A DNA stretch of 64,000 nucleotides from Methanohalobium evestigatum Z-7303 (lineage in GTDB: Archaea > Halobacteriota > Methanosarcinia > Methanosarcinales > Methanosarcinaceae): assembly GCF_000196655.1 (NCBI RefSeq), contig NC_014253.1:1567423-1631422 (forward strand). Reading direction: 5' to 3'. Shown here one piece after another: positions 12,037-25,115 of the stretch. Both the position numbers and the translations under genes were made by a program. The notes below the pieces were generated by a model. That model worked only from the letters and a program-made list of their open reading frames with translations. It made no database searches and had not been told where the DNA came from. Every line of letters begins with the position of its first letter. Position 1 is the first letter of the stretch.

Positions 12037-14280
12037 TTAAAGGTAACCTGTTCCTCCGAGATAGAAGTAATCTATTACTTCAGAGAGTTCACTGCCGCTG
12101 AGATTTCCTGCATAGAATGCATCAATTGCGCTGGAAAGTTCTCCTGCTGAAATTACTCCATTCTGGTCGGCATCAAACTGGTTGTACTCTGGTTCATCCA
12201 TTCCACCTTCACTTACCAAGTCTGGCGGGATGAACAGTCTGTCATCTCCGTGGGTTACGAAGTACTCGCTGGCTTCATTATAACCATCTGTGTCATGCAC
12301 ACTCTGCAGGTATATTCCATCAACACATGTCCATGTTCCACTGCAGTCTGCATCGAACCACATGATGTTGATATCATCAGTATTGTATTCAAGATCACCT
12401 ATAAGGTTCAGGAGGTCTCTATTGGAATCCTCAAGGGCTTCCCAATCTGCTTCGTCGTCTGCGAAGTAATTCAGCTCGTCATTAAGTTCTCTTGAATGTT
12501 CGTCAGCTACTTTTGTGTTGTTGGGATAGAAGTCCTCTTTAATTGCTACATCAGTAAGTCTGACGTCACCGATTGTTACTTCGCCACTTGCATCCATGTC
12601 GATGTATACATTATCCTCTGAATCAAACATTCCGTTATCGTTTCTGTCAGAGTATGCAAGGAGTTGGTCTATATCATATACTTCGGGATGTTCCAAGAGT
12701 GCATATGTCACATCTACATCGCAGGTGGTCACCTTTGTTCCACATTCTGGCCATGCTTCAACACCATGGAATGGGCTGTTTGGATCATTGTATGGCACAT
12801 AAAGTCTAAGGTCACCAACTGTTGTAAACAGGTTGTGTGCATAAGCATCGTTACCCAGTTCATTACTACCTTTGTTAACAAACTCTTCACCGACAGGCTG
12901 CTGGAAGTAGAGCTTGTCTGGGCATGTCCAGTCACCTGTTGCATCTGTATCAATGTATCCTACAGTTCCGACTGGTCCTGGTGCGTCACCTATTGATTTA
13001 AGTCCCCAGCCAGCATCAGCATCGTCTGTTACAGTATCTCCGGATGTTACAATAGACCATGCTTCACCTGCTTCACCTGCTGTCATATCACCAGAGTCGA
13101 ATACTGGTGAATCAGTGAGCCTTACATCGCCATCAGATACTTCACCGTTGTCATCCATGTCTATGTAGACAGGGTCTCCAAGTGAATATCCATCAGCTGT
13201 TTCTTCAAGGTCAGCGTATTTTATATCGATATCTGCTTGTGATGCTGGTATCAAATCATGACCGAGGTCTTTTTCATCACTGAATTTAACCTTGGTATTT
13301 GGCTCGTAAGTTGTTGAAACTGCTGTGAGTCTTACATCGCCTACTGAAACTTTTCCGTCATTATCCATATCCATGTATATTTCTCTACCTTCAGAGTACT
13401 CATAGTAGGAGAGAGTTGCATCTGACGGTGTTAATGCATAGGTTGCATCATGGTCTCCCTGAGCAACTTTGGTACCACATTCTGGAACACATTCTTCATC
13501 TGGTGGTATGTACAGTCTAACATCATTAATTGTAACTACGTCTTCAAACCACCAACTGTTTGTTGTATCCTTTATGTAGAGCTTGTCTTCACATGTCCAG
13601 TCTCCGCTATCGTCAGCATCGACCCATCCAAGAAGGTCTACTGCTTCTCCACTTCCAATTGTAGCAATGTCCATTCCATTGTCTTCGTCACCTGATTTAA
13701 CTACACTCCATGCTTCAAGTCCCCATTCTCCTGCATCATAGAGTTTTTCACCATATTCACCTTCAACTTTTTCAAGTGAATATACGTCTACAGGTGGTAC
13801 ATCTGTTAATCTAATATCTCCAGTTGTGATTGTGCTGTCGTTGTTTACATCAACATATACTGGGTCGTAGAGGTCATATTGACCGTTATCATTAATGTCC
13901 ATGTATTTGAATGGTTCATCTATAACTTCTACAACCCCATCATTAACGTCTCCATCACCAGAGCTTACTTTGGTGTTGGGGTCATAGTTGTCATGGTAAC
14001 CTGTAAGTCTAATATCACCATCTGAGATTACTCTTTCACCATTGTTGAAAGATTCGTCCATACTTACATAGTAATAACCTTGGTCTGAATAGACCACATC
14101 AGCTTCCTCATTCACATCGTTTAATGTGAACACCGTCTCATTATCACATTGTTCTACTGTTGTATTGCAGGGCTTTTCCCAGCAAACTTTTGCATCATCT
14201 GCAGCAGATGATAGTCCTGTAAATGCCAGGCATAACACAGCTGCTATCAAAAAAGCTTTTATTTTGAATCCCATATTCAC
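12037..14280 (-). CDS. Secreted protein with many dockerin/EF-hand-like calcium loops
   Basis: 747 residues, very acidic. After a signal peptide (ending near LSSAADD) it carries four long repeats, each with the blocks 'NTKV', 'DxDxDG.(V/I)..GD(V/I)RLT', 'DxD.SGDWTC.DKLY' and 'DVRLYIPP'. At least ten DxDxDG or DxNxD loops are present (for example DMDNDGKVSVGDVRLT), the pattern of type-I dockerin or EF-hand calcium sites. The C-terminus 'FDADQNGVISAGELSSAI' is a regular EF-hand-like pair. GTG 14280 or ATG 14274 both follow AGGAGGT. It is probably a calcium-stabilised extracellular protein; no cohesin partner is visible here, so cellulosome-like assembly is not implied. Confidence 0.75.
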   Translation of the reverse strand: MNMGFKIKAFLIAAVLCLAFTGLSSAADDAKVCWEKPCNTTVEQCDNETVFTLNDVNEEADVVYSDQGYYYVSMDESFNNGERVISDGDIRLTGYHDNYDPNTKVSSGDGDVNDGVVEVIDEPFKYMDINDNGQYDLYDPVYVDVNNDSTITTGDIRLTDVPPVDVYSLEKVEGEYGEKLYDAGEWGLEAWSVVKSGDEDNGMDIATIGSGEAVDLLGWVDADDSGDWTCEDKLYIKDTTNSWWFEDVVTINDVRLYIPPDEECVPECGTKVAQGDHDATYALTPSDATLSYYEYSEGREIYMDMDNDGKVSVGDVRLTAVSTTYEPNTKVKFSDEKDLGHDLIPASQADIDIKYADLEETADGYSLGDPVYIDMDDNGEVSDGDVRLTDSPVFDSGDMTAGEAGEAWSIVTSGDTVTDDADAGWGLKSIGDAPGPVGTVGYIDTDATGDWTCPDKLYFQQPVGEEFVNKGSNELGNDAYAHNLFTTVGDLRLYVPYNDPNSPFHGVEAWPECGTKVTTCDVDVTYALLEHPEVYDIDQLLAYSDRNDNGMFDSEDNVYIDMDASGEVTIGDVRLTDVAIKEDFYPNNTKVADEHSRELNDELNYFADDEADWEALEDSNRDLLNLIGDLEYNTDDINIMWFDADCSGTWTCVDGIYLQSVHDTDGYNEASEYFVTHGDDRLFIPPDLVSEGGMDEPEYNQFDADQNGVISAGELSSAIDAFYAGNLSGSELSEVIDYFYLGGTGYL

Positions 14281-14660
14281 TTTACCTCCTTGTTGTTAAA
14301 CTTCGGAATTTTTTATTAGACAGCATGGAGGATGGGATGTCCAGAACTCTTCCACAATAGATTCACAACAACCACAGCTGCTCCACAACTACGCTGTGAA
14401 GTGCTCTTGTTCTGGACTCCCACTCTACTATACCCCCATATTAACTGCATACGTATCTATACAATTCGAGAATATATATTCTTAAGAAAAACAAATTCAG
14501 AATACAGTTTTGAAAATAAGTTCAGAATTACTGTTCTAAAACCCTGTTACTTAAAAACGTTTCAGAACTTTGTTACATAAACCGGATTTTTAAAAAGTAG
14601 AGACCTTTGAGAAAATCAATAAATAACAAAAAACCATATTTTTAAATGTGAACTGGGGGA
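14281..14660. other. Divergent intergenic region, 380 bp
   Basis: Holds the promoters of the calcium-loop surface protein (minus) and the phosphoribosyltransferase pair (plus). It contains the nested hairpin at 14339-14417 and three TTCAGAA direct repeats between about 14491 and 14571. No gene is seen. Confidence 0.55.
14339..14417. promoter_or_regulatory. Nested inverted repeat in the leader of the calcium-loop protein
   Basis: GTCCAGAAC (14339-14347) pairs with GTTCTGGAC (14409-14417). Inside lies a second stem, CACAGC with GCTGTG, extended by TTCAC/GTGAA. The structure sits about 60 bp upstream of the minus-strand start, where it could fold in the 5' leader. Confidence 0.4.
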
Positions 14661-18230: not shown

Positions 18231-18330
18231 ACCACTTGGCTAAAGACCAAGTGGCTTCCTGTTTCATCCTTTTCCCTTATGGGAACAAGTCCACAGGCTC
18301 TACCCCTCATCCCGAAGGTGAATTGATGCC
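18231..18330 (-). ncRNA. Putative omega RNA (TnpB guide scaffold), copy 2
   Basis: The DNA from the 3' end of tnpB to the right end is strongly conserved with the copy at 56.1 kb: 'ACCTTCGGGATGAGGGGTAG', then AGCCTGTGGA and GAAACAGGAAGC, ending in a hairpin and TTCAC. In characterised TnpB systems this region is the omega RNA and the guide is the flanking DNA after the right end, here beginning AAGTATACAGGG. Expression is not shown. Confidence 0.6.
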
Positions 18331-19434
18331 TATTAGATTCTGTCTATCCAGTGCGAATTTTTTGATGTTAACTGATGCGTTGATGTCCCTATCATGTTCC
18401 GTTTTACAGTCAGGACATTCCCATTCTCTGTCTTTAAGTTCTAAATCCTGATGATAATATCCACATACATGACAGATTTTGCTTGATGGGTCGAATCGTC
18501 CTATCTTGATGATATTTTTACCATACCATTCTGCTTTATATTCCAATTTCTGAACAAAACTACTCCATGAAGCATCAGTTATATGCTGTGCCAGATTATG
18601 ATTTTTCAGCAATCCTTTTACATTCAAACATTCCAGTGCTACAGCTTGGTTCTCGCTTATCAACCTGGAACTTAATTTATGCTGGAAATCTTCTCTCTGA
18701 TTAGCAATTTTCTCATGATATTTTGCTATTTGATGTTTCAGTTTCCTGTAATTGTTAGAACCCTTTTGTTTTCTGCTGAGCCTTTTCTGTAATACCTTCA
18801 ATCTTTCAATTGAATTTTTCAGGTATCTGGGGTTGCCGATTTTTTCACCATCGGATGTTACAGCGAAATCCTTGATTCCTACATCGACTCCTATAGTATT
18901 AACTTCGTAGAATTTCTGTTTTTGTGGTAATTGTTTGTCGTCATCGACTAAAATACTGATATAATATTTTCCTGTCGGTGTTCTTTTTATAGTTGCAGTC
19001 CTTTGTTTACCATCAAAACTTCTATGAAGCCTGGTTTTTATCCAGCCGATTTTAGGTATGTATACTTTATTATTACCAAAATCGACTTTATACCATTGAG
19101 GAATAGGGAAAGATTGTACTGGGTTTTTCTTGGATTTAAACTTTGGAAAACCTGATTTTTCTCTGAAAAATTTGGTAAAAGCATTTTCCAGGTTAAGAGT
19201 AGCTCCCTGTAATGATTGAGAGTTAATTTCATTCAACCATTCATGATCTTGTTTTAATACCCTTATCTGTTTGTTCAATTCAAATCTTGATATTGCTTTA
19301 CCATCCTGCTCATAAGATTTGATTTTGTTCTCCAATGCCCAGTTGTATATGAACCTACAAGCTCCTATATGTTTTGCGATTAACTCCTGTTGTGTTTGAT
19401 TTGGATACATACGATACTTGTAAGCTTTTAACAT
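18307..19434 (-). CDS. tnpB: TnpB RNA-guided nuclease, apparently intact (copy 2)
   Basis: 375 residues from 'MLKAYKYRMYPNQTQQE'. All catalytic parts are present: Asp in 'TIGVDVGIKDF' (RuvC-I), Glu in 'VALECLNVKG' (RuvC-II), a zinc ribbon 'CHVCGYYH...CPDC', and Asp in 'HDRDINAS' (RuvC-III). ATG 19434 is preferred to the start at 19458 because the dead copy at 57.29 kb is homologous only from this Met. No tnpA lies in the window, so mobility would need TnpA in trans. Confidence 0.9.
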   Translation of the reverse strand: MLKAYKYRMYPNQTQQELIAKHIGACRFIYNWALENKIKSYEQDGKAISRFELNKQIRVLKQDHEWLNEINSQSLQGATLNLENAFTKFFREKSGFPKFKSKKNPVQSFPIPQWYKVDFGNNKVYIPKIGWIKTRLHRSFDGKQRTATIKRTPTGKYYISILVDDDKQLPQKQKFYEVNTIGVDVGIKDFAVTSDGEKIGNPRYLKNSIERLKVLQKRLSRKQKGSNNYRKLKHQIAKYHEKIANQREDFQHKLSSRLISENQAVALECLNVKGLLKNHNLAQHITDASWSSFVQKLEYKAEWYGKNIIKIGRFDPSSKICHVCGYYHQDLELKDREWECPDCKTEHDRDINASVNIKKFALDRQNLIGINSPSG

Positions 19435-19533
19435 ACCATAATTATTATGATTTAACATTATTTATATGTTAAGTTATATATTGGACGGTATTCAGCCCTG
19501 ATGCTGAAGACATCAGGGTTTTCTACCTTCCAT

Positions 19534-20601: not shown

Positions 20602-21168
20602 ATGACTGAAAACCAACTGAAACTAATCATTATAACCGTTTGCTTACTTCTTATAAATCTATCAGGATGTATAGACACTGACAATGATAGTGCAGAATCA
20701 AATGATACAAACTTGGTCACGGTAACCAAGGTAGTTGATGGTGACACTATAGACATCCGTTATTCTAATGGCACTACTGAAAGAATAAGACTACTAGGCG
20801 TGGATACACCAGAAACACATACTGACAATGAACCAGAAGATTTCGAAGGTATAGACAATGCCAGTTATCTGCATGAATGGGGCTTAAAAGCAAGTGATTA
20901 CACGTCAGATATTCTAAAAGGCAATAAAGTAAGACTGGAATATGATGATATCTCAGACAGAAGAGGATACTATGGAAGGTTACTGGCTTATGTGTTTTTA
21001 CAAAATGATACCATGTACAATAGGATGTTAATCAAGAATGGATATGCTAGGGTGTATGATGAAGCTGAAATTGAATATATGGATGAGTTTTTGGAACTGG
21101 AACAAGAAGCTAAGGTAAAACAAATAGGTCTATGGAGTTATTACTTAAGTCACAGTTCTACTCACTGA
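20602..21168 (+). CDS. Staphylococcal-nuclease-like lipoprotein (thermonuclease family)
   Basis: 188 residues. A lipoprotein signal ends in 'LINLSGCID', with Cys as lipidation site. The SNase fold follows: 'VTVTKVVDGDTIDIRY', 'ERIRLLGVDTPETH' (catalytic Arg and Asp) and 'GRLLAYVF' plus 'NRMLIKNGYARVY'. It should cut extracellular DNA or RNA at the cell surface with calcium. ATG 20602 is preferred; an in-frame ATG lies 3 codons upstream. It stands alone on the plus strand. Confidence 0.85.
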   Translation: MTENQLKLIIITVCLLLINLSGCIDTDNDSAESNDTNLVTVTKVVDGDTIDIRYSNGTTERIRLLGVDTPETHTDNEPEDFEGIDNASYLHEWGLKASDYTSDILKGNKVRLEYDDISDRRGYYGRLLAYVFLQNDTMYNRMLIKNGYARVYDEAEIEYMDEFLELEQEAKVKQIGLWSYYLSHSSTH

Positions 21169-21237
21169 ACCTGTAATAAAGGCGTTGAAGTTTTTAACAG
21201 CTTTATAATATTTAACGCTGGAAAAATAACAGCATCA

Positions 21238-21252
21238 TTTATTATATATATT
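21238..21252 (+). promoter_or_regulatory. TATA box candidate for the G-loop RNA
   Basis: TTTATTATATATATT lies about 25-30 bp upstream of the predicted start of the structured region at about 21275, the normal archaeal spacing. A weaker TATA-like run on the opposite strand near 21490 means the direction is not settled. Confidence 0.4.
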
Positions 21253-21271
21253 TACAGTATCATAGTAAGAG

Positions 21272-21480
21272 ATTAGAAAGCAGAAGTAGAGAATGAGGGA
21301 TAGTTTCTACAACTGTTTGAAGTAGTGGACGAGCGTTTCAATGGTTGAGTGGGGGTTCAACCATCGGGGAGATGTGGTTTAAAGTAGTCAAAGTGGACTT
21401 GTCTGCCCAATCTGTGTGAACTTGGGGGAGTTTTCATAGATTGGGTAGCTACATCTATTTTGCAAATCCATACTCAATAA
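21272..21480 (+). ncRNA. Candidate structured RNA with G-rich hairpin loops
   Basis: No protein-coding frame. Hairpins in order: GTAGA/TCTAC at 21286-21310 with GAGGGA in the loop; ATGGTTGA/TCAACCAT at 21341-21364 with loop GTGGGGGT; and a 17-position stem, CCCAATCTGTGTGAACT with AGTTTTCATAGATTGGG at 21406-21445 (one mismatch, two G-U pairs), with loop TGGGGG. A U-rich run follows at 21500-21520. The repeated presentation of G-runs in loops looks like a design for binding a protein or C-rich RNA. I do not recognise it as SRP RNA, RNase P RNA or a known riboswitch. Confidence 0.55.
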
Positions 21481-21541
21481 TCTAATATATTCTATATACC
21501 TTTTCTGATCTTTTTCTTAGATTCCCTGAACAAGAATTAAA

Positions 21542-21578
21542 AAATCAGAGAGAACCGAAGAACTCTGCGGTCTGATTT
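21542..21578 (-). terminator. Terminator of the DUF1699 gene
   Basis: AAATCAGA (21542-21549) pairs with TCTGATTT (21571-21578). On the minus strand the hairpin lies 22 bp after the stop at 21600 and is followed by TTTTTTAATT. Confidence 0.6.
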
Positions 21579-21599
21579 CGGCAAATTCTGTGCAAGACT

Positions 21600-21995
21600 T
21601 TACTGTTTCATAAGAAATTTAACAAAATCAGGCTCTAAATTTGATTCTCGACTTATTTTATCAGCAATTTCTTCATCAGAGTAATCATCCTTTTTTAATT
21701 CATTAATTCTTTCATAAATTCCATTTGAAATCTCAGAATATTCATTGATATCTTTCCTGTGACCCCATACATCACCTTCGATAAGGTCTATACCTTGCAT
21801 ATCAAGAAACATTTTAGCAGATTGTGATAATGTTTTAAGGTATGAATTTGGTATATGGAATGCTTTTATGTCAGGGCATTTAGATACAATAGAAAATATA
21901 TCAGTATTGGATGGTCTAAACGCTAGATGGACAATTTCTTCATTTTCATTCAGATTATTAATATCATCTTTTGAACTTATTACTCGAATTCGCAT
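21600..21995 (-). CDS. DUF1699 family protein
   Basis: 131 residues. 'MRIRVISSKDDI', 'NEEIVHLAFRPSNTDIF' and 'MQGIDLIEGDVWGHRKDINE' match the DUF1699 family, which as far as I know is confined to methanogens. The C-terminal third ('KKDDYSDEEIADKISRESN') is helical and charged. Function is unknown. Own promoter and terminator suggest a single-gene unit. The neighbouring candidate RNA on the other strand is not obviously linked. Confidence 0.8.
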   Translation of the reverse strand: MRIRVISSKDDINNLNENEEIVHLAFRPSNTDIFSIVSKCPDIKAFHIPNSYLKTLSQSAKMFLDMQGIDLIEGDVWGHRKDINEYSEISNGIYERINELKKDDYSDEEIADKISRESNLEPDFVKFLMKQ

Positions 21996-22415: not shown

Positions 22416-22470
22416 GAAACCACATATCTCAAGAAGAGCCAAAAAGGAATAATCATTCAAAAAACCAAAG

Positions 22471-22544
22471 TGGGCCCGCTGCGATTCGAACGCAGGATCC
22501 TCGCCGTGTAAAGGCGATGTCATAACCTACTAGACCACGGGCCC
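22471..22544 (-). tRNA. tRNA-Val (anticodon UAC)
   Basis: On the minus strand the 74-nt sequence folds as a cloverleaf: acceptor GGGCCCG/CGGGCCC, anticodon stem TCGCC/GGCGA with loop TTTACAC giving anticodon UAC, and T-arm GCGTTCGAATCGC. CCA is not encoded. Confidence 0.95.
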
Positions 22545-23903: not shown

Positions 23904-25115
23904 ATGAAATCCAAAGAAGTAAAGTACACCCCGCGCAACCTCAAAGACACCTTAATAGAAATGAAGGACATTTCTGAATTAATGGTTGACCTTGCATATT
24001 CTGCCATGATATACGATGATGTAGATATTGCAGAGGAAGTGCTATATCTTGAAGAAAAAATGAATTTACTTGATTACCAAATGAAAATTACCGCCATGCT
24101 GAGCGCCCGCCGTATCGAAGAAGCTGAAGAAATGTCAGGAGTGCTTCAGGTAGCTGATTCATCAGAAACCATTGCAAATGCAGCAGGTGATATTGCAAAA
24201 ATCGTATTAAGGGATATGGGCATTCCGCTTGAACTTAAATACGCCCTTCGAGAAGCTGAAGAAACGGTAGTACGTGCCACTGTAAATGAAAAATCCAAAA
24301 TGGTAAACAATACTCTTGGAGATTTGGAACTTGATACAGAAACTGGAATGACAATAATTGCTTTACGCAGAAACCATAACTGGATATATGACCCTAACGA
24401 AAATACAAAGATAAAAGCAGGTGATGTGCTTTTTGCCAGAGGTCATGATGAAGGCATTCCTCTATTTGTAGGACTTGCGACTGGTAGAGAATATTCTCCA
24501 AAAAAAATTGATTATGAACCAAGTTTAAAAGGTCTAAAACAGGCAGTGGACATTATAGTAGATATGAAAAATATGGCAGAACTTTCAGTTGGATTATCCT
24601 ATTCTGCGATACTTTTTGATAATGAAGATATTGCCCATGAGGTCAAAATCCTTGAATCTGAAATGGATTCCATGAAATATGAACTCCAGCATTGGGTGCT
24701 TGAAACCGCAAAACATCTTAACGACCCCAGCCAGTTACGAGGACTCCTGCACCTTGCCAATGCATCAGAAACAATATCTGACGCAGGATATGGCATAGCA
24801 GATACTGTATTAAGAGACATTGAAACCCATCCGGTTATCACACTTGCTGTCAGAGGTTCTGATGAGGTAATAACAAAACTGGAAGTAGAAGACTGTTCAC
24901 CGATAGTCGGCAAGACTTTCAAGGATTTAAAACTTGAAACAGAGACCGGAGTACACATAATGGCTATGAAGCGCAACAACAGATGGGTATATTCACCAAG
25001 CGACAGAACTACTGTGCAGAGTGGTGATGTACTGATTGCCAGAGGTACTCATACAGGAGAAGATGCATTAATAGATGTCTGTAAATGTCCCGTCGAAGAA
25101 GAGGACAATTATTAA
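23904..25115 (+). CDS. PhoU/TrkA-C tandem regulator of the MgtE pair
   Basis: 403 residues made of two copies of PhoU-like helices plus a TrkA-C (RCK_C) domain: copy 1 about residues 10-200 ('DISELMVDLAYSAMIYDD', 'TGMTIIALRRNHNWIYDP', 'GDVLFARGHDEGI'), copy 2 about 210-400 ('MAELSVGLSYSAILFDNEDI', 'GVHIMAMKRNNRWVYSP', 'GDVLIARGTH'). No membrane segment. TrkA-C domains bind small ligands and gate transporters, so this is probably the cytoplasmic gate or sensor for the MgtE pair 61 bp upstream. Confidence 0.8.
   Translation: MKSKEVKYTPRNLKDTLIEMKDISELMVDLAYSAMIYDDVDIAEEVLYLEEKMNLLDYQMKITAMLSARRIEEAEEMSGVLQVADSSETIANAAGDIAKIVLRDMGIPLELKYALREAEETVVRATVNEKSKMVNNTLGDLELDTETGMTIIALRRNHNWIYDPNENTKIKAGDVLFARGHDEGIPLFVGLATGREYSPKKIDYEPSLKGLKQAVDIIVDMKNMAELSVGLSYSAILFDNEDIAHEVKILESEMDSMKYELQHWVLETAKHLNDPSQLRGLLHLANASETISDAGYGIADTVLRDIETHPVITLAVRGSDEVITKLEVEDCSPIVGKTFKDLKLETETGVHIMAMKRNNRWVYSPSDRTTVQSGDVLIARGTHTGEDALIDVCKCPVEEEDNY

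Follow-up and report, generated by a model that had tools for sequence, protein, structure and literature searches.

In Listeria monocytogenes, LhrC1-5 are several near-identical RNA copies governed by one regulator (PMC4132741). Their motifs are C-rich (UCCC) and bind G-rich Shine-Dalgarno (SD) sequences, whereas the multicopy RNA of Methanohalobium considered below holds the G-rich side. The two are otherwise alike in being multicopy under a common regulator, in repeating a short motif in loops or single strands and in the logic of SD pairing; this is a likeness of design, and a sequence relation is not expected. The same paper (PMC4132741) covers CsrB and RsmZ, which resemble the Methanohalobium RNAs in having several copies and G-containing loop motifs; a repeated motif and the logic of a decoy may be common to both. 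However, CsrB and RsmZ titrate CsrA/RsmA at GGA motifs, whereas the Methanohalobium motif is GAGUGGGG and the partner proposed is RNA. Among the Methanosarcinaceae, Methanosarcina mazei has two sRNAs, sRNA154 (through its loop 2) and sRNA41, by which ribosome-binding sites are masked (PMC5867862), as is proposed below for a set of RNAs with C-rich loops. The word 'sponge' does not occur in that review.

No paper on a comparable family of sRNAs in Methanohalobium was found in the literature searched. To our knowledge, only a few single RNAs are known in archaeal sRNA regulation. The 6C RNA of actinobacteria forms hairpins with C-rich loops and in this respect resembles the C-loop set, but its lineage differs and no Rfam family matched the searched regions except an adjacent HEARO RNA.

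In this study, a 64,000-nucleotide stretch of Methanohalobium evestigatum Z-7303 (the window) was analyzed together with its source genome (G000; 2,406,232 bases in two contigs) and the other Methanohalobium genome searched, a metagenome-assembled genome (G001). An initial annotation had described a gene-free gap with successive hairpins exposing runs of G, and had suggested a CsrB-like decoy, pairing to C-rich targets or mimicry of ribosome sites.

Structure of the window locus

The gap lies between the end of an SNase ORF at 21168 and a DUF1699 ORF, and no ORF of at least 50 amino acids was found in it. The following features were assigned in window coordinates.

21183-21199, no strand assigned: palindromic upstream element, consensus CGTTRAAAATTTYAACG, with two mismatches in this copy; conserved in the alignment
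21230-21254, plus strand: conserved core promoter CAGCATCATTTATTATATATATTTA, with TATA about 25 nt ahead of the predicted start (copy alignment, pattern search)
21272-21515, plus strand: copy W of the G-loop RNA family, a predicted sRNA (covariance model, 177.7 bits, E = 2.3e-47)
within 21278-21318, plus strand: arms of hairpin H1, with GAGGGA in the loop at 21295-21300 (fold, covariation)
21322-21336, plus strand: conserved unpaired linker AGTAGTGGACGAGCG (family alignments)
21341-21364, plus strand: hairpin H2, ATGGTTGA-GTGGGGGT-TCAACCAT (covariation, alignment)
21365-21389, plus strand: semi-conserved unpaired stretch CGGGGAGATGTGGTTTAAAGTAGTC (alignments; also collinear with hairpins A1 and A2, described below)
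21403-21448, plus strand: hairpin H3, 14 bp (21403-21416 with 21435-21448) and an inner stem (fold, covariation)
21600-21995, minus strand: DUF1699 ORF, convergent neighbour of copy W

All three hairpins of the initial annotation are present. The RNA of 21265-21480 folds at -69.1 kcal/mol (z = -4.78), and none of 200 shuffles was equally stable. H2 consists of a perfect 8 bp stem (21341-21348 with 21357-21364) around the loop GTGGGGGT, and the 8-mer GAGTGGGG lies at 21347-21354 within it. The last hairpin had been given a 17-position stem; H3 has 14 bp continued by an inner stem, with GGGGG at 21424-21428 in its apical loop. Copy W has four unpaired runs of at least three G. The TATA box claimed upstream corresponds to a TATA-like stretch at 21240-21254, about 25 nt ahead of 21272. 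The 3' end was placed from a T-rich stretch at 21501-21518 and from the similarity between copies, which stops near 21523.

Against Rfam 15, the sole match in the window at or above the gathering score was a tRNA. Two sub-threshold matches in 21150-21600 at E <= 5 were read as chance, and a search of 11 loci with related RNAs gave a single match, HEARO, in the region adjoining one of them (L137). The DUF1699 ORF is probably outside the RNA unit because it lies near only four copies. As a partner of type I/III toxin-antitoxin kind it was dropped, being matched, among the loci inspected, at L012, L022, L013 and the window only; by eye, a DUF1699 start is also near the family's weak cousin L081. 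A small ORF inside the RNA was rejected as well, since by eye reading frames are not kept between copies.

A multicopy family restricted to Methanohalobium

A DNA search with 21100-21560 in 40 genomes gave 12 places in G000 and 14 in G001; the 38 other relatives yielded one 33-nt match in total. A covariance model built from nine copies was then run on 111 Methanosarcinaceae genomes. It recovered ten strong copies in G000 and eight in G001 (18 full-length copies overall), one weak cousin in each genome (39.8 and 39.5 bits, respectively) and a hairpin termed A1 (16.7 and 15.5 bits). The structured RNA had no copies in the other 109 genomes searched, so that the search of other Methanosarcinaceae proposed in the initial annotation extended the family to a second Methanohalobium genome and no further. 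The model also gave weak hits in eight further genomes (E from 0.0094 to 0.365); these show no GAGTGGGG loop, look accidental and were set aside. A single match in a contig of a chicken-gut bacterium (L087) was likewise taken as chance, and viral contigs gave no matches to the exact family pattern.

Covariation was counted over 20 sequences aligned to the model (the 18 copies and two cousins), after 5 of 25 model matches, on the opposite strand or weak, had been removed by a stricter cut-off. Over 35 pairs, 92.9% of cells are paired; this and the following counts lean towards the structure, to which the alignment was fitted. Changes on both sides affect 14 pairs (shuffled mean 6.3, reached in 0 of 500 shuffles) and 33 cells (shuffled mean 9.0), and sliding the partner columns by one to three positions lowers pairing to 35-42%. 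H1 contributes 12 pairs, of which five vary on both sides, with pairing in 90.0% of cells; H3 contributes 14 pairs, of which seven do so, with pairing in 93.9%. Sequence comparison confirms the structured RNA with exposed G-runs that had been suspected. The absence of stem conservation in related genomes had been named as the observation that would speak against it; because the stems covary within Methanohalobium, this objection falls away.

The three hairpin loops carry G-runs of differing motifs, and the H2 loop alone is invariant: GAGUGGGG and its GAGTGGGG are kept in 18 of 18 full-length copies. The G-runs of H1 or the linker are missing in L014, L024, L015, L016, L025, L017 and L029, in which those of H2 and H3 are kept. 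The cousins (L081, L078) have AAGTGGGG and AAGTGGG.

Seven RNA loci of G000 (L011, L014, L015, L016, L017, L018 and the cousin L081) fall in long syntenic alignments with G001. At L009, L012 and L013 the G001 match is local only or one G001 partner is shared, and copy W and L010 have no syntenic G001 alignment over 400 bases. Several copies lie within segmental duplications with SNase or DUF1699 flanks. Contig ends of G001 (L026, L027, L028, L023) break inside family copies having an identical 5' tract, which suggests gene conversion between G001 copies. The genes flanking the copies have unrelated functions and varied orientations, and a cis-regulatory leader or riboswitch was rejected for this reason. 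Several homologous, independently promoted and structured intergenic copies were found, as in a multicopy family of trans-acting sRNAs. On these comparisons, it is nearly certain that the RNA belongs to a multicopy structured family special to Methanohalobium among the 111 Methanosarcinaceae genomes.

A shared promoter and palindrome

A promoter is common to all copies. The whole promoter pattern has 11 sites in G000 and nine in G001 (reversed control, 0), every one of which precedes a family member or an RNA of a second type, represented by L018. Further upstream, the palindrome, with a second half-site TTTAACGC at about 21212-21219, is a probable operator or upstream activating site. When up to two mismatches were allowed, G000 had 11 distinct sites, ten of them ahead of genes for G-loop RNAs, namely eight of the ten family (R1) copies, the L018-type RNA and an L153-type RNA; the remaining site is inside an ABC-transporter-like ORF, and two of the ten R1 copies have no palindrome at this cut-off. 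In G001, eight of nine sites are at G-loop RNA genes. With both strands counted, there are 18 matches in G000 and 15 in G001, against six and five for the reversed pattern. The L018- and L153-type RNAs are structurally unrelated to the family yet have the same palindrome and GAGUGGG, an association that was no part of the design of the palindrome search. The family structure, the genus restriction and the common control are all well supported by these sequence patterns. The initial annotation is corrected in two respects: among the 111 Methanosarcinaceae genomes the family is limited to Methanohalobium, and the window locus holds just one of some dozen copies under common control.

One more candidate for a G-loop RNA, L238 (G000:1187232 region), has a GAGGGA-loop hairpin, a GGGG-rich linker and a AATGGGGAGG-loop hairpin followed by T5; it has no palindrome within two mismatches.

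Complementary hairpins with C-rich loops

G000 has 43 sites of GAGTGGGG and G001 has 47, against six and ten, respectively, for the 8-mer reversed; 11 of the 43 are R1 or L018-type RNAs. Ten of the remaining 32 lie within perfect stems of at least 8 bp (inverted arms, loops up to 70 nt), compared with 161 of 3000 random window positions. Among these ten, L139 is coding and probably due to chance, four share a stem, and L106 and L108 were left aside from the candidate set. At least eight hairpins of G000, all intergenic and unlinked, have loops that contain the H2 loop's reverse complement, as follows.

G000, 1555430: candidate C-loop hairpin A1
G000, 661866: candidate C-loop hairpin A2
G000, 1384017: candidate C-loop hairpin A3
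G000, 1087674: candidate C-loop hairpin L141
G000, 773561: candidate C-loop hairpin L137
G000, 2084030: candidate C-loop hairpin L150
Plasmid contig C2, 24244 and 26387: two candidate C-loop hairpins, the one at 24244 with one imperfect stem pair and hence outside the stem-enclosed ten

Read on one strand, the eight loops are ACCCC(C)ACUC, mostly followed by AACC, and so correspond in reverse complement to the loop and left arm of H2. For about 70 nt, the family's conserved unpaired segments run collinear with A1 and A2; for A3 and L141, the match is to the L018-type RNA. The longest perfect complements between a G-loop and a C-loop RNA are 19 nt (L018 with L141) and 14 nt (L018 with A3), and many family pairs have 10-12 nt, the shuffled maximum being 13 in 3840 comparisons. 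Because the C-loop loci were found through a motif search, eight complementary nucleotides are given by construction; 10-nt matches are not rare (at least 10 nt in 138 of 3840 shuffles), and A1, A2, A3 and L141 are not independent since all four have a common stem. Duplexes of the R1 RNA with the A1 C strand range from -70.8 to -101.9 kcal/mol, against shuffled means of about -43 to -55.

Of the eight, A1, A2, A3, L150 and L137 have counterparts in G001, those of the last two being L177 and L192; the motif of L192 has a C-to-T change. G001 has one more hairpin, L168, and no ortholog of L141. A 12-mer, GGTTGAGTGGGG, with eight sites in each Methanohalobium genome and one or two in 14 other genomes of the 111, was dropped, six of the sites elsewhere having been inspected and most lying in ORFs. 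Near one C-loop candidate, L137:2448-2717 is a HEARO RNA (RF02033, 93.4 bits), a transposon-associated RNA.

The strand of these hairpins that is transcribed was addressed by several comparisons. In the plasmid pair, the 80 nt upstream are identical at 62 of 89 positions on the C strand and 45 of 92 on the G strand, random pairs having a median identity of 0.49 and never exceeding 0.61. A U-G wobble on the C strand of the pl1 stem corresponds to a C-A mismatch on the G strand. By eye, U-tracts are seen in loops on the C strand, and TATA-like stretches, which are common in an A+T-rich genome, precede all eight hairpins on this strand by about 30-38 nt, that of A1 lying around G000:1555507 on the minus strand. 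A2 and A3 directly follow ORF stops on the G strand, and their upstream conservation is higher on that strand, which is coding there; both sides are conserved at A1 and L150. Of 13 loci, folding z-scores pointed to the C strand at eight and to the G strand at five. The answers are mixed: promoter conservation supports transcription of the C-rich strand clearly for only one pair, the plasmid hairpins.

Shine-Dalgarno sites and pairing strength

Many genes had been said to use five-G SD runs. GGGGG is found just upstream of the start in 7 of 52 non-overlapping window ORFs of at least 120 amino acids, a count obtained with starts chosen in a way that favours SD pairing. The 16S tail is canonical (GGATCACCTCCT), and an altered anti-SD sequence was rejected. 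By a strict rule, GAGTGGGG precedes ORFs at 2 of 22 fetched G000 sites (L138, L142), with L104 and L145 as possible further cases; GGGGTATAG precedes ORFs at 6 of 30 fetched loci. These SD-like sites before some genes lend support to mimicry of ribosome sites. C-loop oligonucleotides paired most strongly with positions -20 to +3 of the window ORFs, whose starts are biased to SD (means of -6.4 to -7.6), and less so with -63 to -40 (-2.2 to -3.2) and with coding sequence (-4.2 to -5.3). C-rich loops pair with any G-rich SD, which counts against the model.

At L222, L223, L235 and L236, GGGGTATAG lies at SD distance before ORFs with signal-peptide-like starts; their products are perhaps surface proteins.

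Proposed mechanism and alternatives

The C-rich strand of the complementary hairpins would, we infer, be transcribed into C-loop sRNAs that cover G-rich SD sites. Joint induction of the G-loop RNAs would run through the palindrome, and they would meet the C-loop sRNAs by loop-loop contact at GAGUGGGG-CCCCACUC, followed by invasion of the H2 left arm, and titration of the C-loop sRNAs would free the ribosome sites. A G-loop RNA may in this way be both a ribosome-site mimic and an RNA sponge, with CsrB-like logic and RNA in place of protein as the partner. That the co-regulated G-loop sRNAs are ribosome-site mimics titrating C-loop anti-SD sRNAs is the best reading, though one that we consider evenly balanced between right and wrong. 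The complementary hairpins lend some support to the pairing with C-rich targets that had been suggested; that such complements meet in the cell is inferred. The wider picture is more tentative, and we lean somewhat against it as a whole: a two-sided RNA circuit in which about a dozen G-loop RNAs of three unrelated types under one operator face at least eight C-loop RNAs, two of them plasmid-borne, would form an archaeal sponge network with RNA in the place of the CsrA/CsrB protein and with loops of four and five G matching loops of four and five C.

Next after the RNA-RNA mechanism, although unlikely in our estimation, is a CsrB-like decoy whose GAGUGGGG-type loops bind an RNA-binding protein, the 'C-loop' hairpins then being further G-strand sites in independent RNAs or 3' UTRs. 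The invariance of the loop while the stems vary, the several G-run loops in each molecule, the position of A2 and A3 behind ORF stops and the additional G-loop RNA L238 all suit such a decoy. It is opposed by the C-strand promoter conservation in the plasmid pair together with the wobble, and by the 19-nt and 14-nt perfect complements, which exceed a short protein site, although shared ancestry could also yield these if the G strand is functional. The multicopy co-regulated design and the exposed, conserved, seed-like loops would also suit conventional trans-acting sRNAs directed at C-rich segments of mRNAs; this appears improbable, as the GAGTGGGG and CCCCACTC sites outside the RNAs are mostly within ORFs on either strand with no visible pattern, and no target was identified.

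A high K+ concentration is expected in an extreme halophile and would favour a G-quadruplex joining the loops, the RNA then acting as a scaffold or stress RNA. Copy W has four unpaired G-runs, but with those of H1 or the linker gone in the seven copies named above and only H2 and H3 keeping theirs, we give a quadruplex very little credence. Least credible of all is a repeat, selfish or inert, that has multiplied through duplication or transposition. The segmental duplications and the identical tract common to two G001 copies would agree with it. Five loci (W, L009, L010, L012, L013) have no clear one-to-one syntenic partner in G001. Against such a repeat, the stems covary, the promoter is dedicated, seven RNA loci are syntenic, and no transposon ends were noticed, short of a systematic search.

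A ten-copy genus-specific family, a shared probable operator and complementary hairpins together suggest a global circuit of post-transcriptional control, open to test, in a methanogen from extremely saline habitats. Expression of the C-loop strand would make this a sponge network that substitutes RNA for a protein regulator; if that strand is silent, the conserved G-rich loop points to an unknown archaeal RNA-binding protein.

Other features of the window and loci

Three further features were noted. A long hairpin candidate on the minus strand (14259-14628), with GGGGGTATAGTAGAGTGGGA at its base, is upstream of an ORF with AAGGAGG. A tRNA-Val on the minus strand (22470-22544), perhaps a fragment, was identified by ARAGORN only and is below the Rfam gathering score. 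ORFs at 18307-19458 (minus strand) and at L013:526-1530 resemble TnpB of IS200/IS605-type elements.
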